Source: an uncultured Lachnospiraceae bacterium
GTDB taxonomy: Bacteria; Bacillota; Clostridia; Lachnospirales; Lachnospiraceae
Assembly: GCA_947630925.1 (NCBI GenBank)
Contig: CANRJM010000017.1
Span: 1 to 46,148, forward strand
DNA: 46,148 bases
Direction of reading: 5' to 3'
In this document: in pieces, positions 2,129 to 42,627 of the stretch
Position numbering within the stretch: the stretch's first letter is position 1
Layout: the number at the start of each line of letters is the position of its first letter
Translations under genes and position numbers: made by a program
The notes under the pieces: model-generated
Told to the model about the DNA's origin: nothing
What the model saw: the letters and a program-made list of their open reading frames with translations, nothing else
Databases searched by the model: none

Positions 2129-2917
2129 TTATCTGCGGCTATGGACATCCCTGGTATTCTGCCGCCAAAATAATATCAAATGCACTATCCCAAGGCAGAA
2201 TAGCAATACAGCAAACCATTGGATCACCGTCAGGTGATAATACATAGTCGTTCCACGTTTATCCATCAAAAACTCCGATAAAAAAATCAGACAGGAAAAA
2301 CCGCATATTACTCCTCCAAAAACAGCTTTCTTCCGGCAGACGAACCATACCGTGATAAGCAGCAGTAAAACCGTACCGATCATCTCAAATAATTGAGAGG
2401 GAAATACGGAATACGATACGGATGCATAAGGAAACGTCATGGAAAAGATACCATTGCTTGGAATTCCATAGCAGCATCCTCTGGCAAAACAGCCAAGCCT
2501 CCCAAAAATATGCTGTATCAGAATACCCACTGCCAGCGAATTTGTCACTGGCGTCATATCCTTTTTCCAGTCTCTCCGCCCCTGATATAATATTTTATGG
2601 AGCAGCCATATACATGGGACGGCCAATACAGCGGCCACAAGAACTGTCCCTATAAAATGTTTGCCGTAGTTTCCCGTTACATTTTCCCATAACGTCCCTT
2701 CGAAGCTGGTATAAGACAGAACTCTTATCAACGAGCCCGCAAGCCCACCGAGCCAGCTATACAGCCCGTACAGCGGCGCAAACCACAGACTCCGAAAGTT
2801 CCGGAAAGCCCGGTACAGCAACACCATTTGCACTAATACCGAAACAATCGCACCTGCAGTCTGCGCAGCATAATACAGCTCTATCTCTCCCCATGGAGTT
2901 CGAATCATCGGTAACAT
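2129..2917 (-). CDS. Lgt-family (prolipoprotein diacylglyceryl transferase-like) membrane protein
   Basis: A 262-aa polytopic membrane protein with about seven hydrophobic segments. It carries the Lgt family signature as GRLGCFARGCCYG (residues 139-151), preceded by KHFIG (about 87-91, matching the HGG..G region of Lgt) and followed by FPSQLFE (172-178). The cysteine-rich GC..GCCYG version is typical of Lgt paralogues rather than the housekeeping enzyme, so it may modify a dedicated substrate or have another lipid-transfer role. Its start overlaps the end of the protease gene; an internal ATG at 2908 makes a 4-base ATGA overlap with the protease stop. The two are probably translationally coupled. 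The trigger-factor-like lipoprotein of the same operon would be a natural Lgt substrate, but that link is inference. Confidence 0.8.
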   Translation of the reverse strand: MLPMIRTPWGEIELYYAAQTAGAIVSVLVQMVLLYRAFRNFRSLWFAPLYGLYSWLGGLAGSLIRVLSYTSFEGTLWENVTGNYGKHFIGTVLVAAVLAVPCIWLLHKILYQGRRDWKKDMTPVTNSLAVGILIQHIFGRLGCFARGCCYGIPSNGIFSMTFPYASVSYSVFPSQLFEMIGTVLLLLITVWFVCRKKAVFGGVICGFSCLIFLSEFLMDKRGTTMYYHLTVIQWFAVLLFCLGIVHLILFWRQNTRDVHSRR

Positions 2918-5088
2918 ACTACTACCTCACTCTTTTTACTTTTATATTTGTGTCCATTTTGCCGAATAACGACAGCCATACGGTAATATTTCTTTTTCCC
3001 GCCTACCTTTACCATATAAACCGGCTTTTTTACCTTTGCGACCAGACGGTATCTGCCCTTTTTCTTTGCCGCACGGTATACATAATAGCGGTAAATCTGA
3101 AAATCCCCTTTGGCCTTAAAAGTCAGTTTTGCCTTTTTTCTTCCTCTTTTGTACTTTCTTTTTATCTTTGGAACTGTCTTTTGCAGTTTCTTCCGTATTG
3201 TATGCGACAACGCCTTATCGCCCGTGACCGCTGGCGGCGTCTGCACTGCAGGGGCTGTCGCCAATGGAAGTTTTGCCGCAGGCGTTGCAGCCGGCCGAGG
3301 CGATATCGTTGCCGAGGCATCCGGTGTGGGAGCAATGGTGCCAGACGGAGTCGCCGCGTCATACACCGTCAATGTCATCGGTAAATAAGGATTGCCTAAC
3401 TGCGTATGGTATACGCCGTCATAAATATCAAAATAATAGGATATCTCCTGCAAATATTGTCCGCTGCACGGGATGGAAAGTTGATAAAACCCACTTTCCA
3501 ATAATTCCATCTCCCTGCTTATCCAAACTCCTCCATTCTTCATACAGTAGTAAAGCATTACTTTCTGTACGCCAAAATTATCCGATGCATTCAGGCAAAA
3601 CGTATACTCCTCCCCGCTCTGCGGCGACAATGTCGCATCCACAGCCACCGGCGGTTCCCGGTCAACAAGCAGCTCCTCTTTTTGCGCCATAAGCGCTACA
3701 TCCATCAAATCCGCTTTCCGATAAGACAGTTGAAGGGCGTTGTCCCAATTCCAATCCAGATGATGTGTCATCGCCTCCACAAAAAGTTTCTGTAAAGCAG
3801 GCGTCGGATATTCATCCTTGTCTGTAAAGATCCCTCTGCAAACAGCCATCGCTCCGGCCACCAATGCAGTTGCCGGCGAAGTTCCTGAAATTGTCTGATA
3901 GCGGTTATTCAACGCCGTGCTGCTGATTCGCACGCCCGGAGCCGCCAACTCATATTCCGTCCCTGCCCCGACAAGCACATCCCAATTAGAGAAATCGGCG
4001 ATGTTCTCATCTGTATCATACGCCATAACCCCTACGACAGCATCATATCCCGCAGGATATATATTGGCCGCCTCGACTCCCTCCAGAGCCATATCCTCCG
4101 TTGCCAGCCCTTCATTTCCTGCAGCGGCAGCCAAAAGACATTTCTGTGAAGCTTCAGCGATTACACTCTGCAAAAGCAGAGAATCCTCATAAGTTCCAAA
4201 AGACATATTAATGACATCTGCGCCATTGTCTAATGCATACTGAATCCCTTCCACTGCCAGATCCGTACCAAACTCTCCATCAACACTGACCTTGATCGGC
4301 ATGATCCTGGAACCATATGCGATTCCTGCGCCTCCGCCATTTCCCGCCTCCATGGCAATAATCCCTGCCATCATCGTTCCATGGCCATGACTATCCGTCA
4401 TATCCGGCCAAACATTTACCAGATTCACGCCATATATATCATCCACGTAGCCGTTTCCATCATCATCTTTGCCGTCCTCTCCCCGCTTTTCGGTCTCATT
4501 TACCCAAATATTGTCAATCAGGTCGGAATGAGCCAGGGAAACTCCGGTATCAATGACAGCCACAGTAACGCCCTGCCCCGGCGTTTTGCCTTCTCCTTCC
4601 AGTACCGACCAGGCTTTCTTCGCCTGAAGATTGTCCAGATACCACTGATCAGCCGCCAATTCATCCGCCTCAAAAGGATAAGAAGATGCCTCGTCCATAA
4701 TATGGCAGACATAATTGGGCTCTGCCCAAAATATCCCATCCTGCTTCTTTAATTCCTCTACCGCTGTTTCTACCTCGGTGCCTTCTTTCAGTTTTCCAAC
4801 ATAGAAGTCCAATTTTCCGCCAGAAGCCATAGATAAATTCTGTGAAGACAATTTGCTGCCGCTTCTTTTAAAAACAGAAGAACGACCCTTCTGTTCCACC
4901 GTGGTCAGATAGGACGCCTGAGAAATATACGGTTGGCGCAGTTCCTGTGCCAACCGCCCTTTCTGTATACTGCTTCCTTTCCGTCCGGTATTCCCGGACT
5001 CTATAGCGATGATAACTTCCCCCGCTATATAAGCCCGGTCTTCCGAACCCGCCTGTACCTTCTTTGCCGCACATGCAAATACCAGCAT
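2905..5088 (-). CDS. Subtilisin-like serine protease (S8), secreted; signal peptide apparently split by an in-frame TGA
   Basis: A 727-aa S8 protease. The triad is Asp180 (VIDTG), His236 (HGHGT) and Ser404 (SGTSPA), with the oxyanion Asn325 (AAGNEG). Residues about 20-130 look like an inhibitor-type propeptide ending in FWAEPNY. After the catalytic domain come a beta-rich region, a Pro/Thr/Ala linker (about 585-635) and a very basic C-terminal beta domain, probably wall-binding. The first ATG (5088) has no ribosome binding site and lies inside a hydrophobic stretch. Reading upstream in frame gives KKRI, then TGA (5112-5110), then IAACTFLMLVFACAA, which would be a textbook signal peptide without the stop. 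Either the gene is nonsense-mutated, the stop is read through, or translation restarts after the upstream peptide. It lies in an operon with the giant protein and Lgt homologue. Confidence 0.85.
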   Translation of the reverse strand: MLVFACAAKKVQAGSEDRAYIAGEVIIAIESGNTGRKGSSIQKGRLAQELRQPYISQASYLTTVEQKGRSSVFKRSGSKLSSQNLSMASGGKLDFYVGKLKEGTEVETAVEELKKQDGIFWAEPNYVCHIMDEASSYPFEADELAADQWYLDNLQAKKAWSVLEGEGKTPGQGVTVAVIDTGVSLAHSDLIDNIWVNETEKRGEDGKDDDGNGYVDDIYGVNLVNVWPDMTDSHGHGTMMAGIIAMEAGNGGGAGIAYGSRIMPIKVSVDGEFGTDLAVEGIQYALDNGADVINMSFGTYEDSLLLQSVIAEASQKCLLAAAAGNEGLATEDMALEGVEAANIYPAGYDAVVGVMAYDTDENIADFSNWDVLVGAGTEYELAAPGVRISSTALNNRYQTISGTSPATALVAGAMAVCRGIFTDKDEYPTPALQKLFVEAMTHHLDWNWDNALQLSYRKADLMDVALMAQKEELLVDREPPVAVDATLSPQSGEEYTFCLNASDNFGVQKVMLYYCMKNGGVWISREMELLESGFYQLSIPCSGQYLQEISYYFDIYDGVYHTQLGNPYLPMTLTVYDAATPSGTIAPTPDASATISPRPAATPAAKLPLATAPAVQTPPAVTGDKALSHTIRKKLQKTVPKIKRKYKRGRKKAKLTFKAKGDFQIYRYYVYRAAKKKGRYRLVAKVKKPVYMVKVGGKKKYYRMAVVIRQNGHKYKSKKSEVVVCYR

Positions 5089-5109
5089 AAGAAACGTACA
5101 CGCTGCTAT

Positions 5110-5271
5110 TCAAATGCGTTTCTTTACCGATTCAGAGATATCAGACGTCTTATTGATATGGATTCCTGTCATAGCGCCGCCTGTTACCTGATCCAATTCA
5201 TCCTCATCCATCTTCTCATCTGCAACCTTCTCTAATTCCACTTCCTGCTTCTGCTTCTTTTCCTTTTTCAT
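5110..5271 (-). CDS. Small peptide with double-glycine leader (candidate precursor of the C39 exporter)
   Basis: A 53-aa ORF beginning MKKEKKQKQE. Its Shine-Dalgarno AAAGGGG lies 9 bases before the ATG. Residues 25-32 read ELDQVTGG, which fits the double-glycine leader consensus: Glu-8, Leu-7, Val-4, Gly-2, Gly-1. The leader is charged, as in bacteriocin and microcin precursors. Cleavage after GG would leave 21 residues (AMTGIHINK... ending SVKKRI) with no Cys. It sits 30 bases after the giant-protein stop and ends 22 bases before the protease ATG, in the same frame as the protease. It is the only GG-leader peptide I found, and the window encodes a C39 leader peptidase/exporter with an intact triad. 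The alternative is that it is the N-terminal extension of the protease, separated by the TGA. Confidence 0.65.
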   Translation of the reverse strand: MKKEKKQKQEVELEKVADEKMDEDELDQVTGGAMTGIHINKTSDISESVKKRI

Positions 5272-5301
5272 GGTTTTTATCCCCTTTCTAAATCTGATTG
5301 T

Positions 5302-8300
5302 TTACGCTTTGATCTTCATCTTGGCCGTCACGCCGGCCTTTTTCTTCAAAACTTTCCGGTATTTTTTCCTGCTCTTCTTTGGCACTCTGAAGACTGCTTT
5401 AGATGCGACGCCCTTAAATGCTTTGCTGCCAATCTTTGGCGCCTTTGCCGGCTTAAAGAGAATGGTCTTTACCCTCTTGCAGCCGTAGAACGCTTTTGAT
5501 CCGATGCTCTTTACTTTCTTGCCAATCGTCACTTTTGTCAGTTTCGAGCATTTATAAAACGCTTTTGATCCGATGCTTTTTACCTTATTGCCAATCGTAA
5601 TCTTCGTCAGTTTCTTGCAGCCGTAGAATGTGCTCTTTCCAATACTCCGGACATTTTTTCCACCCGAAACTTTCGTCAGTTTTGTACAGCCGTAAAAAGC
5701 ATTCCTGTCAATACTGATAACATTCTTGCCAATCGTCGCCTTTTTCAGTTTCTTGCAGTTCTTAAAAGCATTGGCGGCAATCTTTGTTACCTTATAACTC
5801 TTACCGCCGATTTTGACAGTTGCCGGCACGGAAACCGATGTAATGGTCTTCTTCGCACTGACAGCCGATGCGCTGCTTCCGGATACCCGGTAAGTTACGC
5901 CTGACTTGACAACCGTTTTTCCCCCTGTAGAAGGTGCAGGCGTCTGCTGCTTCGCAGCCTCCGCTTTTACGGTTACCGTAGTCGTGTATTTCCTGATTGC
6001 ATCATTTGGCAGACTGACATAATTGGATTCTTCATTTCCAAAATAGTATCCCTCATGACTCTGCCCCTCATCGACACTTGCAGATACCCGGCTATTCTTC
6101 GGCATGACATAGGCGGTCAGTTTTGTAGAGCCCTCTTTGATGCCGGACACATTGCCCATATCGTCCACCGTGGCGATACTTTCATCATCCATTTTCCAGA
6201 GCACTTGCAATCCCTCTGTTCCTGTCAGACCAAGTTTTTCATCTGCCAGGGAGGATTTGATATTAGCCTGCGCCCTCTCAATATGCCCGAGAGCTACTTT
6301 CATGCCGGAACCGTCTCCAATCATGCCCTTTTGAATGCTGTTTACCTCGTTCATCTGTGCGCCGCTGGCAGTTCTTTCTACCTCTTCGGTCAAAGTCTGA
6401 TCTCTATACTCTACGTAAAAGGTTCCCTTTTCATGGATAAATCCGTTGTCTCCCTCAGACTTGATAAACTGCGTTAACGAATCAACCTTTACCTGTTTCT
6501 CAAGAGTCGTACTCTCACTGCGCGCCAGCGATTTTACCGGTACGGTTGCAAGTTCAATCTTTTTCACCGCCGTCTCGCCATCGGTTGTCTCATCCTTCTT
6601 TTCCGACGGTATCTCTATGCCGATGACTGCCTCGCCCGCCTCAGCAAAACGCGCCTCAGAATTTTGAATGTCAACGGTAACGTCATAGACGTCTCTTTCG
6701 TCTGTCTCCTTTACCTGGAAGTTTTGCAGCAATACATCACTGCTGATTGTGCCGGTATGTCTCTCATCAATCAGCTTCCTGCCGGAAGCATCCGTAAGCT
6801 GAATCGTAACCGCCGCATCTTCCGCGTCTTCGTCCAGCGCAAGCTTTGCACTGGCATCATAGATATTTCCGCCCATCAGCTTATCAATGGTAATCGAATC
6901 TACTGTCTTATATTCCGCAGTAACCGCGCCGTCTTCGCCCGGCTTTGAAACCTTCTGTTCCTGTAAAACACTTTTGCCATTCTCATCTTTTACGGTAAGA
7001 ACCGCATTGGTTAACGTGTCGATTCCATCATTGAGGAGACGGATAGAAATCATGTTATCTTCTCCTGCAATCAGACTGTCCATCGTCACTTCGTCTACCT
7101 TCATGACAGAAACCGGTGTGATATTCATCATCACGAGCGACTTATTTACCTGATCCGGAGCCGCATACTCGACAAAGTCTTTCTCATCCACCTTATCCTG
7201 CTTCTCATCCTTAGAGTGCGTTTGATTGTACTCCTCGATTGTCTCATTAAATTCGTCCGCTGTCACAGTCTTAGACTTCGCTTTCGTTGCCAGCGCCGTC
7301 AGCGTTGCATCACTGTTGACGACAAAGGAGAGATTGTCATAGTTGGCGCCTTCCTCGCTGGTTACCTGTACAGGTTTTGTCATACAGTCCTCTGCCATAT
7401 CGTAACGCGCCATATAAACCTGCGTCTCAACACACTGATTCTCCGCCTGCGCAGCTTCCTCGGAATCTTCTTCCACGCCATCCTTCAATGCGGATTCCTG
7501 CTGCGTCCATGACAGATAGACAAAACCGTCCGTACTGTTTACGTCAAAGCTGGAAATCGCACTGACTGCGTTTTCCTGATCTTCCGCCACTTCGCCTTCC
7601 ACCAGGGTCATCGGCGGAATATATTTCTGATCGTCGGCATTCTCTGCGCGGCTCTTATCAATCATATAATAATCCACGTTGTCTGACGACGTCTTCTTCT
7701 TCAGGCAGCCGTCCTCTCTGACCACGTTAGAAATATTCAATCCGACAATATTGCCGTCAGACAACCACGCCAGATACGTATCTGCCAATTTTCTATCCTC
7801 GGAAGTTACCCGGATAAACCGGACATTTCCATCAGAGACATTGTCGCTGGTTACCATAACCGGATGCGACATAGTCCCCGCCTCAAAATCATAAATCTGG
7901 AAATAAATATCCCTGTCTTCTACGGTGGACATACTCTGATCATAGTCTACCGTATAGGCAAACAACCCCAGATCGTTGTAACTTATCGCATCTTTGTCGA
8001 TAATCTTCGGCGCATATTCCACCGGAACCTTATCGGTATCCCCCGACACTTCGGTCTTTTCTTTCTCCGGAAGCACTCCGGTCTCCTCTTTGCCAGTCAC
8101 ATTGGAACTTACGTTATGTCCCAAATACTCTTCCGGGGCCTTGTTATCTTTCCAATATCCATCTTCGTCCAACTGCTCATCCAGATAGACGTCGGGCGCC
8201 GTTGCGAAGAATACCTGGCCATAATATGTTTTCTGATAGTCTTCATAGGTCGCCGTCCCGCCCTGCAAGCCGTCAACGATACCCTGATACGTAGAATCCT

Positions 8301-11300
8301 CAGGCGATGCCTTGTAGTCCGGAAGTTCCTTATAATCCTCTATCCATGTTCCCTCTGTCCCCTTAGTATCTGTAAACTTATATACGCGGTATACCATCTG
8401 GCTGTCCGCCGGATAGATGACATCTCCAATCACTTCGCCCTCTCCTTCGTCGGAGACCGCATAGTCGCTCTTGGTATAATATACCAGCATATGATCCTTA
8501 TTATAGACAACATTCGGCGAGGTATCGCCATATACATCGCAGCCCAGTTCCTCCTTAAGCTGCTCTGTCTCGTGCGTAATCTGCATGATCTGTCCGAATG
8601 TCTTTGCTTTCTTATCAAAGAAAGCGCCATGGATATCCATCGCATTCATCATGCCCACGCGGGAATCTGCCTCTGTAAACACCTTATTCGCAGCAGCCCA
8701 TGTAACCATAATACCTCTGTCGCCCAGATCAAATACGCTGACGTCCTGGTCCGCCTTTCCATCATTTTCCAGCAGGATTGGCTGGTCGCGCCACCCGGTT
8801 TCATGGTCGTAAACATCATAGTACACCGCCGCACTGTTGATATCATCACGGACCTGCTTGCCGGAAGCATCCGTCTCATCATCAAGAAATACGCCGAGAT
8901 AGTCGCCCTGATCGTTCAAAGCAGTAAGTTTTACATCTGTGCCGCTGTAAATGCCATTGCGGAGCGTCTCCTGCGCCACGCCGTTTTCATTCTCATCGAG
9001 GCTCTTGACAGACACGCCGGCGGTATTCCATTTACTCCGGTTCTTAAAGTAATCCTTTGGCTCGCTTTGCAATACCCTGCTGCTGTCGTGCAGATAATTT
9101 AACTCATCCATCCTCGCCAGTGAAGCGGTACTATTGCCCCCAAACAGAGGGATCTCCTTTGAGAAAAACGGCCAGCTTGCAGATATGAACAATACCTTAA
9201 CGCCGATCGATGCATCCAGGTTGAGAGATCCGACGTCCTCTTCCTCGCTGGTAAAGAATGTCATATTTAACTGCGCCCCACCGTTTACCGACACGCTGAT
9301 CAAATTTGCCAACACGCCTGCGGTTGCCGTTAGTTTGATATACGGGTTGACATGAAAGGTACCCTCGCGGATATACGGATCGATGCCTCCCTTGCGGAGA
9401 TGGAACAGGTCGATCTTGCTGCTTCCATCCGTCTTGTCAATCAGGGAATCCCCTGAACCTGACGTTAGATAGTACCGCGGCCGGTTTCCGAGTTCCTCAT
9501 TCTCTGCGATGACAAATGTCGCGCCGCTATCGTTCACGCCCAATTCAAATCCGAGGGAAATCGTGATCCCAATCGGCGTTGCAAAACCGACGTTGACGTT
9601 TGCTCCGCCCGATACAGTAGCGCCGACCACCATGCTCTTAAAATAATAGGCGCTCTTCTCTTCATCCCGTCCAAATGCAATTTCCAGAGATACAGAAACG
9701 TCTGCGCTGACTCCGGCAGCCACGTTTGTCGTAGTCTTGCGCGGATTTGACGCCTTTTCCATATTCTCATCCAGTTTCTTGCCCGCCTTTTCCATATCGG
9801 ACTTTAACGATTCCAGCTTCTTTTGATCGCTCTCTGTCGGTTTATCTTTCTTGGACACCTTCAAGGTCTCTTTGACATATTTTTCCTGAGCCTCCGCTTT
9901 CGCCTTGGCGGCTGTAGCGACAGAATCATAGCGCTTAATGCCTCCGTAAAGGTTTTTCTGTATCTCGCCTGTATCAAAGCCCATGGACAATACCATCGTG
10001 CCCTCTTCATCAACCACGATATTATCATTTGTCACATCAAAGAAGTCGCCTTCCCATCCCAGGTCAAATGACGAATTGATATTGCCCAGCAGTTTGACAA
10101 TAGTATTTGCGCTTCCAAACTCAAAACTGTTGGCAAAGTCAAGGATACCGACGCTCTCCATCAGAGAAATGCCCGTGCTCCGCTCGTAGTATGCTTTCCC
10201 ATTCTGGTCATACACCTGGAACTTTATCGTCGTCCCGGGCGCCAGGCCTAACTCTTTAGGATTAAAATCCAACTGGAAATTGCCGGAATCCTTTGCAGAA
10301 ATCTCCTGCTTTACTTCTTTATCTGTATATTTCTTTCCATCTTTATGATAGAAATTAAGGCATGCGCTCCTCGGCTGTACGTCGTTATTCCTGCTGTTTA
10401 CCTTAAAACGCATACGGTAGACTTTGTCGCCATTATCCATGCTGTTCCACTTAGCGGCGGTCTCCGTCTGATTTTTCCCCTCGCCCTTGACAACAGAAAT
10501 ATTCGCAGTCGCCACCTGCATAATGGAATCCGACTTAAATACCACGTCCTGGAAATAATTAGGGTTTGATACCACATTCTGCGTCATCACGGAACCGTCC
10601 GGCGCACTATAATTAAAAGACAACAGCATATAATCCTTTTTGTTATAGGTTCCGTCTCCATCCATCTCATAGTATCCATCTCTTGGCTGCGAATATGTGG
10701 TGGCAGTTTCCAGCGTATGCGTTACATCTGTGTCGCCGTCCGCAACAACTGTCACGCCGTTTAACGCTGTTTGGGTTTTCTTTCCGGAGAAAATCTCAGA
10801 ATCTTCGAGAGAAACAGCGCCCGCCAAACTATGTGTGTTACCGCCGGTCGCCTTCTCCCTCATCTCAAAATCGTAGTAAATCTTCGTATAGGCTACGGTA
10901 GGAGCAAACGACAAGACGTTTCCGGAAACCGGCGTAAAGCCCTTGTAGGAACTCTGCTTTTCCTTATCGTCCAGATCGCCGTCTTCATCGGCATCCACCG
11001 TCCCGTCATTCCAAACGGCGCGGTACTGATAGTCTTTCGTATTGTATTGATCATCTGTCAGGCCGATGACAGAATACCTCGCATTCATCACGACGTCCTT
11101 AATCTCTATCGGGTGATCTTTGTCACCTTTGGAGTTCTTCGATGGATCCAGGGGATCTTCATATATGACAGCTCCCTTGTCGGTATTTTTGCCGGCAGGA
11201 TCTGCCATGACCTTGATCTTTGACTCCTGATACTGGAGATCCACATTGATCTGATTTGTCGTGGCCGGCGCTAGCTTAATCTCATTTGCCTGGACAGTTT

Positions 11301-13626
11301 CATACGCCACAGTTTTCTTCAACTTACTGTCAGCGACAGAAAATCCCTTGATGGAATATCCCGCATTAGGAGATGCGACAATATCAATCGTATCGAGAAG
11401 CGTTGCTTTATTAAATGCCTCATTATTGCCGAATCCTCTAAACGAGCCAAGATTCGACTTTTTATACTGTACCGTTGTCGTCTTTCCATCCTTACCCTGT
11501 GTTTCATAATTCATGTTATCGTTATTCAAAAATTTGATTGCCGCCTGTTTGACGGTAAATTTTGGGCGAAGCTGGATTGTATTACTGCTGACATAGTCAG
11601 AACCCATCGACAGCAGGGTTTCCAGAGTGCATTCGCTCACTTTGTTCCAGCTAACCAGCTCGGTCCATGTATTGGACTTAAAGTTGAAAATCTGAAATCC
11701 ATTGAAATCTACTGTCGTTTTACTTACCCTTTTGTCAGTATTATCATAACTAAAAGAAAGATTCAGCTTATCGCCGCAATTTTTGAACGTACCCTTGCTT
11801 TTTTCATCGACATATCCCTCGCCCAGGCGGAATGGGCTGCCAGTTGTTGAGTCGTTCGCCCCTTTCCATATCTTCGGCTGGTAGGCATTGCCTGCGTATT
11901 GTATCTGCTGTTTGCTGATCGGATTGTTGTCCATCTCTACCGTATATTCCCGATAGGTAATCGTAACGCTTTCAACCGTCAGCTTTGCATTTTTATTGGA
12001 ATTTACCGGCTGCACATAGGCATACAACGACATATTGCTATACTTTGCATCATATGACAAATCACAGGTAGCTGTTGTAGAGCTGCCGATTGAGCTGGTT
12101 GCTCCCGAAGAATAAATCTGCTTAGAGAAAGTATCCTTTCCTTTTTCATTCTTGCCAACCAGTACCAATCTCACCTTCCGGTCTCTCTTCTCCACCTTAC
12201 TGCAGCCGTCTTTCACTGTGGTAGATCCCTCGGTGCTGTGAAATGTGACTTTGATCTGTGACGCAGTCCTCAGATCCTCGCCGCTAAATACTCCCCCAGA
12301 CTGCTCTTTAGAGGTATTGGATGCCTTAACGTCACAACCGCCAAGAGTTTTAGTATTTCCGTCGTTTGCTTTCGTACTCATCTTGCCGTCTGACGTTACA
12401 TTGCGGTATACAACTTTTTCCTCCTGCTGCCTGCCTGTGACTGTGACTAAGGCGGCGCTCTTTTTGGTGTTGACCACGCCGTCATCCGACTGCAGACCAA
12501 CGTAGAATGAAACATCCTCCGCAGTATCTGCATCGGCAATCAGCGGAATCGTTACCGTCTTGCTTGTCATGCCCGGCGCAAAGACCAGCGCCTCATTGAC
12601 CGCCTCATAATCCACACCGGGTTTTGCAGTCAACTCTTTTGTTCCTACCGTCAATACGCTGAGCCGGTTGGTGCCTTTGGTCTTGTTCACAGTCAATTCG
12701 ACGGCGCTTTCTCCCCTCTTTACCGTTGCGGACGCCGCCGCCATCTCATATGTATTGACCTCTTCTTTCTCATTATCCCTGATATTAAAATATCCGGTAT
12801 AATTCTCACTCAATTCCGCCCCGGAGGCATCCGACAGGATAAACATGACCTGTTCGTCCCCCTCTGACAGTTTGTCGTCGATTGCGGTAAGATCGACCTC
12901 TTTTTTATACTCGCCATCCTTAAATGTAAACGTGTATTCCACGCCTTCCATCTTCTTTACCGCATTGAGGAGATTGCTTTTCCCCTCCGTCATCAGCGTC
13001 TCTGCGCTCTGGTAATCGGCGTCCTTCTTATCATTCGTCTCTCTCCATGATTTCTGTACAGCGGCCTTGCCGTTTTGGATCGCCGCCGCCTTTGCCGTAT
13101 CGGACAGATCGTCAACTGCAGCCTCGCCGCCCGACTGGGCAGCCACAGCCTTGCTGTCTGCAGCGCCGGCGCCCTCCTGTGCCTGCTTTTCGTCAGCCGC
13201 CTTAACTGACAGGCTGTCGCCGTATTTTTCCATCAAAGTGGACACGTTATCTTTTGCTTCTAAGACCGTTGACTTCTTTCCGTCATGAACGGTCATCAGA
13301 TAATCTTCCCCATATTTGGCGGAAACGCCGATTGCCTTCAGGGTGACCTTCGCCTTGCCTTTGGTTCCTCCGGCTCTCACGACAAGAAGCTGGGAATCCT
13401 CTCCCTCTGCACCTGTCAACTGCGATTCGCCAAAAGCGATCATTCCTTTTGGATACTTTTTGCTGCTCACTGCCGATACCAATTTCTCTTTCAGCGCCTG
13501 TTCCGTCATCGTATCGCTCTTTTTCAGGGACGCATCAGATGCTTCTGCCGGAACAGAGACCAAAGAAACCATCATACTAAAAGAAAGTATCGCAGCCAAT
13601 ACTCGCTTACTCACTTTTCCTCTCAA
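5302..13626 (-). CDS. Giant secreted surface protein with Calx-beta, Ig-like and BspA-type leucine-rich repeats
   Basis: About 2774 aa. I chose a TTG start at 13626 because AAAGGAGG lies 7 bases upstream; in-frame ATGs at 13647 and 13665 lie at or before that site. The N-terminus RGKVSKRVLAAILSFSMM... is a signal peptide ending near AEASDA. Two Calx-beta-like segments follow (about 230-400), then long beta-rich regions, a charged coiled coil (about 1240-1285), a Gly/Val-rich beta region, a CARDB-like segment (about 2165-2280), a Big_2 Ig-like domain (about 2480) and six or so 23-residue BspA/LRR_5 repeats (about 2600-2730) with a Lys-rich tail. I see no LPXTG motif or SLH domain, so retention is probably through the basic tail. 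It follows the foldase lipoprotein and precedes the double-glycine peptide and protease, suggesting a co-exported envelope module. Function is unknown; adhesion or ligand display fits the domains. Confidence 0.88.
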   Translation of the reverse strand: MRGKVSKRVLAAILSFSMMVSLVSVPAEASDASLKKSDTMTEQALKEKLVSAVSSKKYPKGMIAFGESQLTGAEGEDSQLLVVRAGGTKGKAKVTLKAIGVSAKYGEDYLMTVHDGKKSTVLEAKDNVSTLMEKYGDSLSVKAADEKQAQEGAGAADSKAVAAQSGGEAAVDDLSDTAKAAAIQNGKAAVQKSWRETNDKKDADYQSAETLMTEGKSNLLNAVKKMEGVEYTFTFKDGEYKKEVDLTAIDDKLSEGDEQVMFILSDASGAELSENYTGYFNIRDNEKEEVNTYEMAAASATVKRGESAVELTVNKTKGTNRLSVLTVGTKELTAKPGVDYEAVNEALVFAPGMTSKTVTIPLIADADTAEDVSFYVGLQSDDGVVNTKKSAALVTVTGRQQEEKVVYRNVTSDGKMSTKANDGNTKTLGGCDVKASNTSKEQSGGVFSGEDLRTASQIKVTFHSTEGSTTVKDGCSKVEKRDRKVRLVLVGKNEKGKDTFSKQIYSSGATSSIGSSTTATCDLSYDAKYSNMSLYAYVQPVNSNKNAKLTVESVTITYREYTVEMDNNPISKQQIQYAGNAYQPKIWKGANDSTTGSPFRLGEGYVDEKSKGTFKNCGDKLNLSFSYDNTDKRVSKTTVDFNGFQIFNFKSNTWTELVSWNKVSECTLETLLSMGSDYVSSNTIQLRPKFTVKQAAIKFLNNDNMNYETQGKDGKTTTVQYKKSNLGSFRGFGNNEAFNKATLLDTIDIVASPNAGYSIKGFSVADSKLKKTVAYETVQANEIKLAPATTNQINVDLQYQESKIKVMADPAGKNTDKGAVIYEDPLDPSKNSKGDKDHPIEIKDVVMNARYSVIGLTDDQYNTKDYQYRAVWNDGTVDADEDGDLDDKEKQSSYKGFTPVSGNVLSFAPTVAYTKIYYDFEMREKATGGNTHSLAGAVSLEDSEIFSGKKTQTALNGVTVVADGDTDVTHTLETATTYSQPRDGYYEMDGDGTYNKKDYMLLSFNYSAPDGSVMTQNVVSNPNYFQDVVFKSDSIMQVATANISVVKGEGKNQTETAAKWNSMDNGDKVYRMRFKVNSRNNDVQPRSACLNFYHKDGKKYTDKEVKQEISAKDSGNFQLDFNPKELGLAPGTTIKFQVYDQNGKAYYERSTGISLMESVGILDFANSFEFGSANTIVKLLGNINSSFDLGWEGDFFDVTNDNIVVDEEGTMVLSMGFDTGEIQKNLYGGIKRYDSVATAAKAKAEAQEKYVKETLKVSKKDKPTESDQKKLESLKSDMEKAGKKLDENMEKASNPRKTTTNVAAGVSADVSVSLEIAFGRDEEKSAYYFKSMVVGATVSGGANVNVGFATPIGITISLGFELGVNDSGATFVIAENEELGNRPRYYLTSGSGDSLIDKTDGSSKIDLFHLRKGGIDPYIREGTFHVNPYIKLTATAGVLANLISVSVNGGAQLNMTFFTSEEEDVGSLNLDASIGVKVLFISASWPFFSKEIPLFGGNSTASLARMDELNYLHDSSRVLQSEPKDYFKNRSKWNTAGVSVKSLDENENGVAQETLRNGIYSGTDVKLTALNDQGDYLGVFLDDETDASGKQVRDDINSAAVYYDVYDHETGWRDQPILLENDGKADQDVSVFDLGDRGIMVTWAAANKVFTEADSRVGMMNAMDIHGAFFDKKAKTFGQIMQITHETEQLKEELGCDVYGDTSPNVVYNKDHMLVYYTKSDYAVSDEGEGEVIGDVIYPADSQMVYRVYKFTDTKGTEGTWIEDYKELPDYKASPEDSTYQGIVDGLQGGTATYEDYQKTYYGQVFFATAPDVYLDEQLDEDGYWKDNKAPEEYLGHNVSSNVTGKEETGVLPEKEKTEVSGDTDKVPVEYAPKIIDKDAISYNDLGLFAYTVDYDQSMSTVEDRDIYFQIYDFEAGTMSHPVMVTSDNVSDGNVRFIRVTSEDRKLADTYLAWLSDGNIVGLNISNVVREDGCLKKKTSSDNVDYYMIDKSRAENADDQKYIPPMTLVEGEVAEDQENAVSAISSFDVNSTDGFVYLSWTQQESALKDGVEEDSEEAAQAENQCVETQVYMARYDMAEDCMTKPVQVTSEEGANYDNLSFVVNSDATLTALATKAKSKTVTADEFNETIEEYNQTHSKDEKQDKVDEKDFVEYAAPDQVNKSLVMMNITPVSVMKVDEVTMDSLIAGEDNMISIRLLNDGIDTLTNAVLTVKDENGKSVLQEQKVSKPGEDGAVTAEYKTVDSITIDKLMGGNIYDASAKLALDEDAEDAAVTIQLTDASGRKLIDERHTGTISSDVLLQNFQVKETDERDVYDVTVDIQNSEARFAEAGEAVIGIEIPSEKKDETTDGETAVKKIELATVPVKSLARSESTTLEKQVKVDSLTQFIKSEGDNGFIHEKGTFYVEYRDQTLTEEVERTASGAQMNEVNSIQKGMIGDGSGMKVALGHIERAQANIKSSLADEKLGLTGTEGLQVLWKMDDESIATVDDMGNVSGIKEGSTKLTAYVMPKNSRVSASVDEGQSHEGYYFGNEESNYVSLPNDAIRKYTTTVTVKAEAAKQQTPAPSTGGKTVVKSGVTYRVSGSSASAVSAKKTITSVSVPATVKIGGKSYKVTKIAANAFKNCKKLKKATIGKNVISIDRNAFYGCTKLTKVSGGKNVRSIGKSTFYGCKKLTKITIGNKVKSIGSKAFYKCSKLTKVTIGKKVKSIGSKAFYGCKRVKTILFKPAKAPKIGSKAFKGVASKAVFRVPKKSRKKYRKVLKKKAGVTAKMKIKA
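5440..5780 (-). repeat. 69-bp tandem repeats encoding leucine-rich repeats
   Basis: Near-identical 69-base units encode 23-residue repeats of the form AF..C.KL.KVTIG..V.SIG. For example, CGCTTTTGATCCGATGCT begins at 5491 and again at 5560. Divergence rises away from the central copies. Such repeats can expand or contract by recombination. Confidence 0.8.
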
Positions 13627-13661
13627 GATTTTTCCTCCTTTTTTCATAATATCTATCATAA

Positions 13662-14804
13662 TCATGGCAGGAACTTCGCATTCTCATATACCATCTGATA
13701 CGCCTTCCGGTAGAGAATCCTTTGCTCGAGCCGTGTTTTATCCACCTGTTTCTCCACTTCTTCGACGGATGTATAATTTTTTCCGTCGACAAAGCTCTTT
13801 ACCCCTTCCTTGTATTCCTCGTCAGTCAGGGACAGTTTTTCCTTTTTGATAATGGCCTGATATACCATCTCAGATGCCAGCAGTTCCTTTGCCGCCTCAG
13901 TCAACTGCTCCTCATATTCTTCTGGATTTATGCCATACGCAGACAGCATATAATCTTCCAGAGAAAGGTTTGCTCCCAACGCTTCCTGCTCGTAAGTTGA
14001 CTGTGCCTGCTGCTTAAACTCCTCCAATTGTTTTTCAGGATATTCTGATATTACAGCATTTGCCACAGCCTGTTTCCATGCGGCCTGAGCCATAGCGTCC
14101 TCCGCTTCCTCTTTTCGGGCTTTCTCCAACTTCGTGCGGGTTGCCCCGGTTACCTCATCCACAGTATCACAATGAAAATACTGCTTTGCTGTATCTGCCG
14201 TCAGTTTTGGCACGTCTTTCATAAATATATCGGATATTATCACATGATAGATAAGGGTCTTTCCCGCATAGGCAGAGGAATCCTCCTTTGGTACCTTCGC
14301 CTTGATGAGCACTGCCTTTTTACTGGGACGTTTCCCAAGCAGCCCCTGTTCCAAATCCGGGATCAGGGTGCCGGAGCCAATCTGCGTCGTCAATTCGCTG
14401 CAATACGCTCCCTGAACCTTTTTCTTTCCCCGATACCCCTGAAAACTAAGAGTAACATAATCGCCCTTTTCTATTTTTTTGTCTTTTTTCTCTCTCCTGA
14501 CCGCATGGCTTTCTAACGTTTCATCAATCTCTTGTTCCACTTCCCGGTCAGATACAGGGACTGCCTCTATTTTCTTGATTTTAACGCCCTTATATGTCCC
14601 AAGGTCCACATACCCGGACAAGTCGATTACCTGGTTAATGGTCAAGTCCTTCAGACCCGCATCATCCGTTTCCTTCGTTGTTTCCGTCTCTGGTCCGGGA
14701 GTCTTCTGCGGCTTCCCCTGACAGCCGGACATAGTCACAGACACAATAAACGCATATAGGAACAGCCGCCTTACCGCCGTCTGCCGACGCCAAAAAGCAT
14801 ACAT
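13662..14804 (-). CDS. Trigger-factor-like peptidyl-prolyl isomerase lipoprotein (extracytoplasmic foldase)
   Basis: About 380 aa. The start at 14804 is chosen for GGGAGGAG just upstream; in-frame ATGs at 14867 and 14855 have weaker sites. The N-terminus has RR, a hydrophobic run and SGC at 26-28, a plausible lipobox with lipid-bearing Cys28. Next come a trigger-factor-like segment (VEQEIDETLESHA), an FKBP-type PPIase domain (about 105-195, KGDYVTLSFQGYRG ... GSGTLIPDLEQGLLG) and a helical trigger-factor C-terminal chaperone domain. The usual ribosome-binding domain is missing, as in secreted trigger-factor homologues of Clostridia. It lies 35 bases before the giant secreted protein gene, so its likely client is that protein or the protease. 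This is inferred from order. Confidence 0.85.
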   Translation of the reverse strand: MYAFWRRQTAVRRLFLYAFIVSVTMSGCQGKPQKTPGPETETTKETDDAGLKDLTINQVIDLSGYVDLGTYKGVKIKKIEAVPVSDREVEQEIDETLESHAVRREKKDKKIEKGDYVTLSFQGYRGKKKVQGAYCSELTTQIGSGTLIPDLEQGLLGKRPSKKAVLIKAKVPKEDSSAYAGKTLIYHVIISDIFMKDVPKLTADTAKQYFHCDTVDEVTGATRTKLEKARKEEAEDAMAQAAWKQAVANAVISEYPEKQLEEFKQQAQSTYEQEALGANLSLEDYMLSAYGINPEEYEEQLTEAAKELLASEMVYQAIIKKEKLSLTDEEYKEGVKSFVDGKNYTSVEEVEKQVDKTRLEQRILYRKAYQMVYENAKFLP

Positions 14805-14893
14805 TCCGCCCTCTCCTCCCGTATGGATTGTTCCTATCGTATTTTTCCTGTTCATATCAATCTCCATTTCTGAGCGGCTTGTCGCAAAGAGGC

Positions 14894-14995: not shown

Positions 14996-17900
14996 TCACT
15001 TGTAACTTCTCCAAAATCCCGCCTGCCCGCTTGAAACCATATCCTGCCAGTCACTCCACAGCAGGGAAGCAATCTTTTGCGCATCATCCGGCAAAAAATA
15101 ATGTCCCGCTCCTTTTATCGTCTTCACCCGCATGGAGCCACGAAAATACCGTCTCCATTCCTGATATCTCCTCGGCCATCTCCTGGTCAGGGGATCCCTG
15201 TCTCCAAATAACAGCGTTACCGGATGCGAGGTTCTGCACGCAGGTCTGTATTCCATATAATCAAAAAATTTTGCCGCATCCATCCGGAATTGTGCAATCC
15301 GACTTGTAAATTCCACTTTCCTCCGATTTTTGGGCTGGAGACGTTCCAAAAACAAAACTACCGCCCAATCCGGTAACATATCCCAGACAGAGTATTTCTT
15401 CTTCCCCAGGCGGAAATACCGATCCGGAAGAGAAGCAGCAAGATAAATATTACAGACTGTCCTCTCCTCTGACTCTAACTTCCTCAACAGGGCAACCGCC
15501 AGCGCAGTTCCCACACAATATCCAAATAAAGTATACTCCTGATATCCGCTGAGCTGCACCGCCAGTTCCTCTGCCATTTCCCGCACCGTCCGCCGTCCAA
15601 AATCCGCCGTGCTGACGACGGCGATGTCCCACGGCAAACCCTGAAGTTTCCTAGCAAGGGCGCCATAAATCTCACTTCCCCCGCCGCCATAAGGAATGCA
15701 GAGCAGCAAATGTGCGGCGCCCTTTTGAACCAACCAGTCCATGCCTTTCCTGTCGCTATGGGATACTTCCAGTACCCGCTCCAGCCGGCGGATTGTCGGA
15801 TACTGGTAAAGCAGCCCGTAAGAGCAGTCGTAACCCTGGTCGCGCAAAGCTCCCACAATCTGTATGGCGGTAAGGGAATCCAATCCCGCTTCTAAAATAT
15901 CATCATCCGGCGAAACTGTAATCTGCGGGGCATACTTCTTAAGCAGCGCCAGCAACTGCCGCCCTGCCTTTGTAGCGGGCATCTCTTCCATCTCTCCTGT
16001 ATGCGCCTTCCTTTGCCTGACAGGCAGCGACAATAGTTTTGGAATATCCGGCTTCCCATTTGCCATTCTGGGAAATTGCTCTACCTGACGCCATACAGAC
16101 GGAATATTATACCGCGGCAGTTGCCCCTCCAGGCGTTTGGAAAGTCCCACGATCTCCCTATCGGCCTCATACCATGCCGCCAAATAATTTCCTTCCACGG
16201 CTGCATATGCTGCCCTGATTCCCTCTTGCTGCATCAGGACGTATTCCACCGCCGCTGTATCAATACGCATCCCCCGCAGTTTTGTCTGTGAATCCAGCCG
16301 TCCGCAAAAGACAAGTTCTCCATCCTCCCTCAAAAAACAGCGATCCCCCGTACGATACGCCGGCTGTCCCTGATAGCAAAAATAACCGCCCTGATCTTCT
16401 CCAAGGTATCCCATGCCAACCAGGTCGCCGACAACGCAGAGTTCCCCTTCTGCCCGGATTGGCAAAACCGTTGTGCCGGCAGGAGCCATCACATACAGTT
16501 GGGTATTGGCAACCGCTCTTCCAATCGGTATCTCCGGCTCATATTCCCCGCCACATTCATACCACGAAACGTCTATCGTACACTCCGTCGGTCCATACAG
16601 GTTTATCAACCGCACTCCGGGAAAGATTCTCCTGGTCCGCTCCGCTAACGCCGGCGTCAAAGTTTCGCCGCTGACAAAAAGTTCTGCCAGGCTGACGTCC
16701 CTGCCTGTGTTTTCTTCGCGTTCCCAATAGTCCAGAAAAGCGGACAGCATCCCAGGCACAAAGTGACACCGGGTAATCTTCTCCCGAATCAGCGCCTCCC
16801 CAATTTTATCCGGCAGCCTCTCCTCTCCCTGTTCCATAAGGTATAAGCAGCCGCCATAAGCCGGAACGAGCAGAAGTTCCCACATGGATACGTCAAATGT
16901 GTACGGCGTTTTTTGCAATACAACTTCTCCGCATCCATACTGACAATTCATCCATTCCAGACGGCACATCAAGGAATAAACGCTGATCCTGACCGCTTTC
17001 GGCAGACCGGAGGAGCCGGAAGTATACATCAGATACGCCGTCTGTTTCCTCAAACTGCTCTCGGGATATATCCGCTTTACCTCTCCGGAGGCACGCTGTT
17101 CTACATCCGTCTCCGGCATGAGATCCACCTCGGACAATTCCCGGTCTCCAACTACCATACCAGAGTCAGATAACAACTCCTTCCGCCTGTCCTGTGTCTC
17201 ATTCACGGCGACAGTCAGAACTGCAGCGCCAACGTGTTGGATCGCTAATAATAGCAGGGGCAGCCTGACGGAACGCTCCGCGCACACGCCAACGATCATA
17301 CCCTCTTCGGCGCCATGCGCACGCAGCCAATCCGCCGCCTGATAAAACCAAACCAATGCCTGCCTGCCGTCCCACGCCGCATCATTGTCCCTGAGTACGG
17401 TCCGCCTGTCGCCTGTCTGGATAGCGTGCAGACAGCGCCGGATAAACATCTGGGCCGGCGTCTTTTCCGGCTTCACGCGGCCACAGCTATTTACACGCCG
17501 ATAAGCGGCATGATCCCGCTCTGATAGAAGGGAAAGCTGCTCCCATCGACAGCCATTACAAATCTGGTCTAACAATAAAAAGCAGCGCTCTGCCAGTTCT
17601 GTCGCCCTTTTTGTATCATAATACGCTGTCTGATAATAGATTTCCATGGACGGATGCCCGACGCCATCATTAATCCAAATCCTCAGAGGCGTGTCGATAC
17701 AGTTGGCGGATACCTCATGATATTCCCGTCCCTGCTCCATCTCCATGTCCATCGGATAATAGGATACTAATATATCAAACGCCAAATCCGCCTCCGGCAT
17801 TATCTCCTGTAATTCCTCCAAACTGTAGCAGCCGTACCGAAGGCCGGCCAGAAACTGCCCATCCAATGCGGCGCACTGTTCCAGCAGTTCCCCTGGCTGC

Positions 17901-18775
17901 CTGTCATATGCGATCGGTATTACCCGGCTAAAAAGTCCCACCACATCGCGATACTTTCTTGGACGGTATGCCATCATCCTTCCAATGACGGCATGGGATA
18001 TCCCTCTGCGAAGACAAAGTTCAGCAAATAAAGCCAGATACCATATACTCTCAACAGAGACCTTCCCGCTCTTTGCAAAATCATGGATTTTCCCATGCAG
18101 TTCTACCGGTACCGCAATCCTGATCCTTCCCGCTGCTGCCGATATACCTGCCGGATGCTCGTTCCATTGTCCGGATGCATCCGAAAAATGACGTCTCATC
18201 CAATTTCCTGCCTGTTCAGCCGATGCAGTCTTCTCCTCGCCGCCGGCAAGCAGTTCCAGATATCTGTCATCCGAGGTTATCTGCCGTTTCCACTGGGCAA
18301 AGCCAATCCTCCGAATCGCCCCGACGGAATCTCTCTGCCACTGAACCAAGATCAGCAGTGCGGCCCGATCTATAATAAAATGATGAAATTTCTCACAGCC
18401 GCACCAACTTCCGTCTCCAAAGTGAAATATGGCAAAACTGCAGAGCCGTTCTCCAAAGGGAATCGGTTTCTCGATCCAATCCCGAATACATTGCTCTTTC
18501 ATTGAAATATCTGTCTCGCTGCGCTCATACACAGGGACGTCTGCTTCCCCGGAGGCAATCTCTCCTATCTGATTTTTCCCATAATATCCAAGACGCAGAG
18601 CGCCGTGCGCGGCAGGCATGGCAGACAACATCTGCCTGACAATAGTAAGATCATTTTCTTCAAACTGAAAATACCCTCCAAGCAGACAAAGAGCCGACTC
18701 AGAATAGGAAAGCATCATATTTTCAATATTCTTTTGTGCCGGTAATAGAGGATACCTGACAATATCATGATCCAT
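14996..18775 (-). CDS. EntF-like NRPS, C-A(Ser)-T-TE, with a cysteine thioesterase
   Basis: 1259 aa, close to EntF length. The condensation domain (about 1-420) has HHFIID at 131-136. The adenylation domain (about 430-930) has YTSGSSGLPK, LYGPTE and YRTGD. My hand-read pocket is D-V-W-H-F-S-L-I-D-K, almost identical to EntF (DVWHFSLVDK), so serine is predicted. The carrier motif LEAGLDSLTAIQ lies near 966, and the thioesterase spans about 1010-1259. The TE nucleophile motif is GYCVG, with Cys1087 encoded by TGT at 15517-15515 in place of the usual Ser; Asp (FGDRDP) and His (GAGHYF) are present. AAGGAGG lies 7 bases before the ATG and an extended -10 promoter lies about 68 bases upstream. Its C domain must accept an acyl or peptidyl donor, perhaps from the adjacent ACP or the 3402-aa NRPS. 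Confidence 0.92.
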   Translation of the reverse strand: MDHDIVRYPLLPAQKNIENMMLSYSESALCLLGGYFQFEENDLTIVRQMLSAMPAAHGALRLGYYGKNQIGEIASGEADVPVYERSETDISMKEQCIRDWIEKPIPFGERLCSFAIFHFGDGSWCGCEKFHHFIIDRAALLILVQWQRDSVGAIRRIGFAQWKRQITSDDRYLELLAGGEEKTASAEQAGNWMRRHFSDASGQWNEHPAGISAAAGRIRIAVPVELHGKIHDFAKSGKVSVESIWYLALFAELCLRRGISHAVIGRMMAYRPRKYRDVVGLFSRVIPIAYDRQPGELLEQCAALDGQFLAGLRYGCYSLEELQEIMPEADLAFDILVSYYPMDMEMEQGREYHEVSANCIDTPLRIWINDGVGHPSMEIYYQTAYYDTKRATELAERCFLLLDQICNGCRWEQLSLLSERDHAAYRRVNSCGRVKPEKTPAQMFIRRCLHAIQTGDRRTVLRDNDAAWDGRQALVWFYQAADWLRAHGAEEGMIVGVCAERSVRLPLLLLAIQHVGAAVLTVAVNETQDRRKELLSDSGMVVGDRELSEVDLMPETDVEQRASGEVKRIYPESSLRKQTAYLMYTSGSSGLPKAVRISVYSLMCRLEWMNCQYGCGEVVLQKTPYTFDVSMWELLLVPAYGGCLYLMEQGEERLPDKIGEALIREKITRCHFVPGMLSAFLDYWEREENTGRDVSLAELFVSGETLTPALAERTRRIFPGVRLINLYGPTECTIDVSWYECGGEYEPEIPIGRAVANTQLYVMAPAGTTVLPIRAEGELCVVGDLVGMGYLGEDQGGYFCYQGQPAYRTGDRCFLREDGELVFCGRLDSQTKLRGMRIDTAAVEYVLMQQEGIRAAYAAVEGNYLAAWYEADREIVGLSKRLEGQLPRYNIPSVWRQVEQFPRMANGKPDIPKLLSLPVRQRKAHTGEMEEMPATKAGRQLLALLKKYAPQITVSPDDDILEAGLDSLTAIQIVGALRDQGYDCSYGLLYQYPTIRRLERVLEVSHSDRKGMDWLVQKGAAHLLLCIPYGGGGSEIYGALARKLQGLPWDIAVVSTADFGRRTVREMAEELAVQLSGYQEYTLFGYCVGTALAVALLRKLESEERTVCNIYLAASLPDRYFRLGKKKYSVWDMLPDWAVVLFLERLQPKNRRKVEFTSRIAQFRMDAAKFFDYMEYRPACRTSHPVTLLFGDRDPLTRRWPRRYQEWRRYFRGSMRVKTIKGAGHYFLPDDAQKIASLLWSDWQDMVSSGQAGFWRSYK

Positions 18776-32563: not shown

Positions 32564-33724
32564 CTAGCGGTAAACAGAATCTATAATCTGCAAATCCTCG
32601 AAAGAAACTTGAAATCCTATTTTCTGCGCTGTCTGATAATTCAAAAAAATCTTAGGCGTGCATTCGCAAACCTGATCCAATCTGCGAAATGCAACCCCAT
32701 CTTCATGATAAGATTGCATCTGCCTGATAACGTGTTTTGCCTGCTCGGAATAATCCACCAGAGAGACGCCGAACAGCGCGCCATACTGAACCGGCGCCAC
32801 GTCGTCCTGCGCCAGGGTCGGTATCTTGTGCGGCACAATAAAATCCTCCAGCAATTCCTGCAGTTTATTTTCATAATCAATCGAAGAAACTGTAATATAA
32901 AGGGTATCCATCCCCTCAGCCGCCAACTCCCGGTACGCCTGTTTCAGCTCCCTGTAATAACGGTCTGTATCCTTCTCCGATTTTGGTTCATCCACATGGC
33001 GAACTAAGATTTCAAAACCTAATTTTTGCGATGCTTCCCTGATGGAATCAATGGCGGAATAGAGATAAGCATCTTCTGAATCCTCATAGACAATGCCAAG
33101 TTTCTTAAAATGAAGAAAGAGATAACCGGCCTCGATCTGCCTTCTGTAGCTGGTGTTGTCAATCAGCGCATACGTACGATCGTCCCCTGGTTCCTTCTCG
33201 CTTTCCACGATTTCAGAGGCTATCGGATCTGCCGCCAACAGAACCATATACGGATGCGTCTTTTCGTGTTCCTTAAAATATGTCCCTGCCGCCGTTCCCA
33301 TAACAATCATGAGATCCACATCATCCCGGTTGACCATCTGGGAATAATCTTTTTCATCCATAATTCCCATATCAAAATAAGCTTTTCGCACAAACTCATA
33401 TTTTCTCTGACCAGCCATATTTGTGCAGATCGCATTCCACAGTTTTTCTGTATCTCCCCGTTGATAAGACAGATCAAAATCCGTATCCGGATAATTTGCC
33501 TCGATAAATCCCTTTTCGACGCTTCCCTCATCTTCAAACTCTTTTGCAAGCATCAAAAGCTGTTGGGCAAAGGAGGAATATTCCCGCATCTGTACATAGC
33601 CAATACGTAGCGGCCGCCCGTTAGATTGTTCCCCGGCTGCGTTTCCGGGATTTTTTCCAAAAATAACTGCGATGCCAAAAACGCATATCAGCAATCCAAC
33701 CCTGATAACGTATTTCCCTTTCAT
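32564..33724 (-). CDS. ABC-type substrate-binding protein (ABC_sub_bind family) partnered with the sensor-MFS
   Basis: 386 aa with an N-terminal signal or anchor segment (YVIRVGLLICVFGIAVIF) without a lipobox cysteine. Two Rossmann-like lobes follow (LRIGYVQMREYSS..., DLMIVMGTAAGTYF, KLGIVYEDSEDAYLYS, MDTLYITVSSID), characteristic of the PF04392 ABC_sub_bind group. No permease or ATPase of that transporter type is nearby. Instead its ATG overlaps the stop of the sensor-MFS gene by 4 bases. It probably presents a ligand to that protein, or senses the locus product. The ligand is unknown. It precedes the large NRPS by 75 bases. Confidence 0.8.
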   Translation of the reverse strand: MKGKYVIRVGLLICVFGIAVIFGKNPGNAAGEQSNGRPLRIGYVQMREYSSFAQQLLMLAKEFEDEGSVEKGFIEANYPDTDFDLSYQRGDTEKLWNAICTNMAGQRKYEFVRKAYFDMGIMDEKDYSQMVNRDDVDLMIVMGTAAGTYFKEHEKTHPYMVLLAADPIASEIVESEKEPGDDRTYALIDNTSYRRQIEAGYLFLHFKKLGIVYEDSEDAYLYSAIDSIREASQKLGFEILVRHVDEPKSEKDTDRYYRELKQAYRELAAEGMDTLYITVSSIDYENKLQELLEDFIVPHKIPTLAQDDVAPVQYGALFGVSLVDYSEQAKHVIRQMQSYHEDGVAFRRLDQVCECTPKIFLNYQTAQKIGFQVSFEDLQIIDSVYR

Positions 33725-38176: not shown

Positions 38177-38241
38177 CTCTCTGCCCTCCTCTATGTCCTG
38201 ACAATACTGCGCGGATTTCTCCGGCATATAACAAAAGCGGC

Positions 38242-40401: not shown

Positions 40402-40491
40402 TCTCTCTATCTCCTTTTCCCTTTCCATCGGTATCCGCCCTTATCTCCGGCACTGCAGCCTTTGCACGCATGAAGCAGCAGCTTTCTTCCG

Positions 40492-42535: not shown

Positions 42536-42627
42536 TTTCTCTCCTTCCTGTTCCATCCGATCTGCTCTTGGATATCCAAAACAGGTCTCTCGCACGGCTT
42601 CCCGTCCTGATTCCTTCATCTTACACA

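Follow-up and report, generated by a model that had tools for sequence, protein, structure and literature searches.

A conserved double-glycine peptide encoded beside a giant surface protein gene as probable cargo of an NHLM-type C39 exporter in an uncultured Lachnospiraceae bacterium

What does the C39 exporter of this locus carry? The window, the whole stretch of 46,148 nucleotides from an uncultured Lachnospiraceae bacterium that was analysed here, was originally predicted to have its own C39 leader peptidase and exporter, and this holds: an NHLM-type ABC1 protein (38242..40428, minus strand) exceeds the cut-off of TIGR03796 NHLM_micro_ABC1 (880.6 bits, cut-off 853.3) and contains a C39 domain. 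The same strand encodes an NHLM-type ABC2 protein (35987..38227), recognised by Pfam, with 677.3 bits for TIGR03797 (cut-off 709.4) and no C39 domain reported, a HlyD-type adaptor (40492..41529; PF13437), and a Peripla_BP_6 periplasmic-binding-type protein (41396..42628; Pfam), which adjoins the exporter in relatives as well. ABC1 is the sole C39 ABC exporter found in the genome assembly of the window (93.5% complete); the second of the two PF03412 matches in this assembly belongs to a protein of 321 aa that has peptidase domains and no others.

The candidate cargo is the product of a small open reading frame, P0001, at 5110..5271. The original prediction did not state its strand. It stands for the minus strand, on which the gene reads from 5271 to 5110, and does not apply to the plus strand, where direct translation gives no ORF. 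Translation yields 53 residues, MKKEKKQKQEVELEKVADEKMDEDELDQVTGGAMTGIHINKTSDISESVKKRI, terminated by TGA (5112-5110), and reproduces both the Shine-Dalgarno sequence AAAGGGG (5281..5287, minus strand, 9 nt before the ATG) and the leader ending ELDQVTGG that had been reported. The 32-aa leader (5176..5271) has Met-12, Glu-8, Leu-7, Val-4, Gly-2 and Gly-1. The predicted mature core (5113..5175), AMTGIHINKTSDISESVKKRI, delimited by translation and alignment with homologues, has the anticipated length of 21 residues and contains no Cys.

Taken by itself, the GG motif is weak evidence for an exported peptide, and suggestive at best. The strict pattern [DE]L..[VIA].GG is present in one window ORF of 30-130 aa, against a mean of 0.11 expected from 100 order-1 Markov shuffles of the window, and a looser GG pattern is present in two such ORFs, against 5.92 expected. 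P0001 is the sole window ORF of 30-120 aa that combines the loose pattern with a Shine-Dalgarno-like site, in a count made without shuffle control. Chance is ruled out as the origin of the motif by conservation and not by these counts. Because homologues are conserved, and motif counts would not have sufficed, the small ORF is accepted as a real gene, and we consider it confirmed.

Full-length homologues of the peptide are rare. The search of related genomes for small ORFs that had been proposed as a check found 11 copies in 10 other genomes, or 12 peptides in 11 genomes with P0001 included. They span at least three families (f1, f6 and f11; genome G447 stands outside this count). A search with the S8 protease encoded next to P0001 led to the first relative, a rabbit Lachnospiraceae MAG (G447, locus L034), which is the nearest named relative and shares the gene order of the window (giant gene, peptide, S8, Lgt-like). 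G020, from the same genus as the window, has a third close copy. With a profile of three sequences, the full length was recovered from G290, from G163 and, as a tandem pair, from G080. With the window's own included, 4 of the family's 397 genomes have such a copy; the other eight of the 12 matching genomes, with matches ending at or before position 37 of 53, were left out. A profile of seven sequences identified G041, G693, G661, G620 and G631 besides the window, hence 6 of 392 genomes of the order, counted in the same way; 21 of 27 matching genomes, mostly with leader matches, were left out. G592 (match to position 50 of 52, E 0.0047) was left out for a core without the family pattern. The 195 genomes related to G447 that were searched contained no new copy, and the four copies in 48 genomes of family f11 were all already in the set. 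The copies in G855 and G865 stand at the same contig positions as those in G163 and G041.

In the alignment of the 12 peptides, M1, L26, V29, G31, G32 and T42 are invariant. Loss of the GG motif at homologous loci, which had been named as a ground for rejection, is not seen: Gly-2 and Gly-1 end the leader in all 12, together with Val-4, Leu-7 and a hydrophobic residue (L or M) at -12. The core has 21 residues in nine peptides and 22 in three, Cys is absent from the homologous cores, and 10 peptides end in RI or KI, the remaining two in RV and RA. An inspection by eye found a Shine-Dalgarno-like sequence upstream of every one of the 12 ORFs. Among peptide pairs from the window's lineage and from f11, pN is lower than pS in 9/9, with dN/dS of 0.13-0.48 in the seven computable pairs. 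These values support a coding sequence under purifying selection.

The leaders can be compared with a published rule. In the passages available from PMC6363468 and PMC7018657, hydrophobic residues at -4, -7, -12 and -15 matter, of which three or four are used; PMC7018657 gives three or four conserved residues, so that all four are not required. All 12 peptides comply at -4, -7 and -12. Position -15 does not comply in P0001, where it is Asp; Val-15 is present in G290 only. The C39 active site described in the same passages (PMC6363468, PMC7018657), Gln/Cys/His/Asp, is conserved in 8/8 aligned domains, one of which comes from G678, a genome without this peptide, and is also readable in G620 and G693.

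The gene order points in the same direction. Six genomes have a C39 exporter gene on the strand of the peptide, at a distance of about 3-14 kb (about 3 kb in G661, G631 and G693; about 12-14 kb in G080, G163 and G620). It is on a different contig in G447, G020 and G290, and the 14.5-kb contig that carries the peptide in G041 shows none. Many of the genomes are fragmented, and an absent neighbour is therefore weak evidence. NHLM_ABC1 has exactly one match over cut-off in each of the six peptide genomes searched (6/6). Against the cargo reading, the ABC1 of G620 is only 36% identical to that of the window. With the GG motif conserved in 12/12 peptides and a same-strand exporter in six genomes, the original suggestion that the peptide is the exporter's cargo appears well supported. 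A simple one-exporter story is opposed by two observations. A second region in G163 (C36:40440-42944) has an NHLM_ABC1 match from position 1, in two pieces and below cut-off, that covers the C39 part, and the exporter gene of G290 (C340:10253-12385, L065) contains one internal TAG.

The constant neighbour of the peptide is a gene for a giant surface protein. In the window it encodes 2787 aa with Calx-beta, Big_2 and LRR_5 domains according to Pfam (5302..13665, minus strand), and a giant Calx-beta gene is next to the peptide in 11/11 genomes. The gap is 16-209 bp in the 10 genomes measured and about 64 bp in G620. The giant gene precedes the peptide in nine genomes and comes after it in G163 and G080. 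In three relatives, Pfam places Calx-beta in all giants and, near the C-terminal end, SLH (G661, G041) or LRR_5 (G163). A search of viral contigs for relatives of the giant gave none.

From these sequence comparisons taken together, we consider it likely that the ORF encodes a dedicated cargo of the C39 exporter of this locus, which probably works outside the cell with the giant protein. The ribosome would make the 53-residue precursor, the leader of which would dock in the C39 groove of ABC1 via Met-12, Leu-7 and Val-4. Judging from the published leader rules and the gene order, ABC1 would then cut after Gly-Gly and export the linear, Cys-free 21-residue peptide. Outside the cell, the peptide may act with the adjoining giant, serving for instance as its ligand or as a partner in assembly, as the strict adjacency and the core pattern shared across families suggest. 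The partner role is favoured because the giant gene adjoins the peptide. It is our best guess, and the presumed link between the two proteins is drawn from gene adjacency alone.

In several relatives the cluster is compact. G661 and G631 have a single same-strand run of a one-module NRPS (NRPS2), giant, peptide, Lgt-like/Peripla_BP_6 fusion, HlyD, ABC1, ABC2, a gene of about 310-330 aa, and MFS; the contig of G693 stops within ABC1. The same-strand order is Peripla_BP_6, HlyD, ABC1, ABC2, NRPS2, giant, peptide, Lgt-like in G620, and peptide, giant, Peripla_BP_6, HlyD, ABC1, ABC2, MFS in G080 and G163. In the window, the same kinds of genes are scattered across about 40 kb. They include, all on the minus strand, genes for an Lgt-like membrane protein (2129..2917; PF01790), NRPS2 with C-A-T-TE architecture (14996..18775; Pfam) and an MFS protein with a long N-terminal part (33721..35937; Pfam). 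The first two have homologues in relatives, and homologues of the third lie near the exporter or the peptide there. A trigger-factor-like PPIase (13662..14867, minus strand; Pfam) has a lipoprotein-like N-terminus by eye. Between the cluster genes stand a three-module NRPS of 3402 aa on the same strand (22280..32488; Pfam) and a ketosynthase gene on the opposite strand, the intervention of which probably accounts for the 33 kb that separate the peptide from the exporter.

Some features of the neighbourhood vary. In three f11 genomes (L103 14784-16622, L107 12877-14736, L110 1752-3590), a single frame encodes the Lgt-like and Peripla_BP_6 proteins as a fusion; elsewhere they are separate. LPG_synthase_C-like genes adjoin the MFS gene of G661 and of G080, and G661 also has a Leu/Phe-tRNA protein transferase gene; these genes lie at L104 1817-2809 and 5827-6483 and at L072 9046-9939. 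At the cluster edge in G661 and G693, the starts of two genes (L103 1497-2627, L110 15714-16850) resemble tyrosine recombinases. No HHxxxD motif was seen in the NRPS2 C domain of the window or of G290. In G678, five other GG peptides with short leaders (L111 16358-17510) lie upstream of a related exporter operon, and no giant gene is present within the 18.5 kb mapped. This operon looks as though the cargo had been exchanged, and because it carries other GG peptides, the peptide described here may be one cargo type within a wider exporter class.

The main rival to the partner role is a signalling function: like ComC or BlpC, the mature peptide would be an autoinducer that leaves through the C39 exporter, is detected by a GHKL histidine kinase and acts through a LytTR regulator. 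We keep this reading alive because LytTR or GHKL genes are present at three loci: a GHKL kinase and a LytTR regulator adjoin the exporter operon in G447, and a LytTR regulator adjoins the peptide in G290 and G163. The peptide is also short, linear and of the GG type, and PF03047 (ComC) weakly matches 10/12 peptides. However, the match of P0001 reaches 16.0 bits, below the cut-off of 20.4, and is confined to the leader, and the window proteins scanned with Pfam include none with a kinase or LytTR domain. Pheromones usually diverge, whereas the core pattern of this peptide is common to several families, and its constant partner is the giant gene. A pheromone seems possible but doubtful.

A class II bacteriocin is improbable, although exporters of such kind often carry bacteriocins. 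TIGR01847 bacteriocin_sig matches the P0001 leader barely over its cut-off (16.1 bits, cut-off 15.7, E 0.013), and eight of the 12 peptides match at E up to 1. Against this, PF10439 remains at 14.5 bits, below its cut-off of 27.1, the core is short, hydrophilic and, in family f11, Ser-rich, and no immunity gene was recognised in the general annotation. A comparison of P0001 with the PDB by phmmer gave a single match at E 0.84.

It is about equally improbable that NRPS2 and the Lgt-like protein modify the peptide, which would then form the ribosomally made half of a hybrid product. Homologues of both are present in the mapped stretches of G020, G290, G661, G631, G693 and G620, and also of G678. 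By eye, the A-domain motifs of NRPS2 resemble a serine code, which we take to be close to that of EntF (full segment for 6/8 copies, not for those of the window and G290). Against this stand G080 and G163, which carry the peptide along with the giant and the exporter and, in the stretches available, give no tblastn match to NRPS2 or to the Lgt-like protein.

The S8 protease gene requires separate consideration. The protease (2905..5088, minus strand) has 727 aa from its first in-frame ATG, matches PF00082 (E 2.5e-44) and contains the D, H and S motifs. Both in the window and in L034, its frame runs on directly past the TGA of the peptide: KKRI is followed by the TGA and then by IAACTFLMLVFACAAKKVQA in the window or TAACVLFLFAAAGMMKKAQA in L034, 20 codons each, with no gap. 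In the window these codons (5050..5109, minus strand) encode, by eye, a hydrophobic segment and an AxA-like signal-peptidase site. They resemble the main part of a Sec signal peptide, for which the C-terminus of the peptide would provide the positive end. The same in-frame TGA is thus present in two species (window 5050-5112; L034 9983-10045). From the stop to the cleavage-like site, no in-frame ATG, GTG or TTG is common to both; the window's S8 ATG at 5088 aligns with CTG in L034, where the first in-frame ATG is near the end of the hydrophobic segment. The remaining nine genomes have no S8 frame after the peptide in the sequence available. In G020, the stop is TAG, the frame downstream is short and not S8, and the tail of S8 turns up at a different contig's edge, while G290 and G163 encode S8 in a gene apart from the peptide, where the protease has a signal-like N-terminus of its own. 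It is thus very improbable that the ORF merely extends the S8 protease at its N-terminus and is cut off from it by a stop, a reading that draws on the S8 frame and the signal-like codons behind the TGA but is largely refuted as the ORF's sole role by these nine genomes, by the separate S8 genes, by stop codons that vary (TGA in 3/12 copies, TAG in 1/12, TAA in 8/12), and by the fact that a continuous protease ORF, the other outcome originally held to speak against the prediction, is seen in 0/10 relatives.

Because S8 is separate in G290 and G163, and the frame downstream in G020 is not S8, the peptide is an independent gene, behind which S8 came to sit in frame in one lineage. A sequencing error at the TGA is unlikely, as the identical TGA is present in the separate assembly of L034. 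Selenocysteine is also unlikely, since no SelB was found over cut-off in 3/3 genomes; the best SelB match in each is a frame of 397-402 aa below cut-off. The RNA fold downstream of the TGA has a z-score of -3.77 in the window versus +1.34 in L034, so that the two share no RNA element. For the 20 post-stop codons, pN/pS values are 0.381/0.736 in frame, 0.388/0.75 in frame 1 and 0.47/0.532 in frame 2. The coding frame is thus indistinct from frame 1, and the selection test on these codons does not support readthrough. We nevertheless mention, as a tentative idea with less than even chances, that the TGA may be leaky in the lineage of the window, so that most ribosomes would finish the 53-aa cargo and a few would read through into S8, with KKRI and the hydrophobic segment as Sec signal peptide. 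If so, a single start codon would determine how much peptide is exported relative to the protease secreted. Initiation at a weak internal start, or an S8 protease without signal, are the alternatives. Among the matches listed (best 8 of 23), no readthrough case of this kind was recognised in the literature.

The reading of the peptide as exported cargo has consequences beyond this locus. It would supply a likely cargo for an NHLM-type exporter that is otherwise without cargo in view, and, for gut bacteria of the Clostridia type, would tie such exporters to giant surface proteins. In the parts of the literature available to us, no description of the peptide/giant/exporter set was recognised. 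The predicted 21-mers are short enough for synthesis, which makes their function directly testable.

The system can finally be placed among known ones. With the NHLP and Nif11 precursors it shares the exporter families, TIGR03796 being over and TIGR03797 just under cut-off, but its peptide has a short leader and a Cys-free core. That no classic NHLP or Nif11 precursor is present was part of the original prediction. It holds for P0001, which the NCBIfam models of both do not match up to E 1 (the Nif11 model matches one of the 12 peptides, at E 0.056); for the rest of the window it extends as far as a motif scan and Pfam for the submitted larger ORFs. The ComC/BlpC pheromones are alike in being short linear GG peptides, and LytTR/GHKL genes are found near three loci here. 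They differ in that the core pattern of the present peptides is common to families, the Pfam match is weak and within the leader, and no two-component system is seen in the window. Similar in layout are the double-glycine peptides of PCAT/AMS systems (LahA/LahT, PCAT1, ComC/ComA), which have a GG leader with hydrophobic residues at -4, -7 and -12 and a C39 ABC exporter in the same cluster. In contrast to these systems, no lanthipeptide maturase is reported among the neighbours scanned here, the core family has no Pfam or NCBIfam model above cut-off, and the constant partner of the peptide is a giant surface protein.
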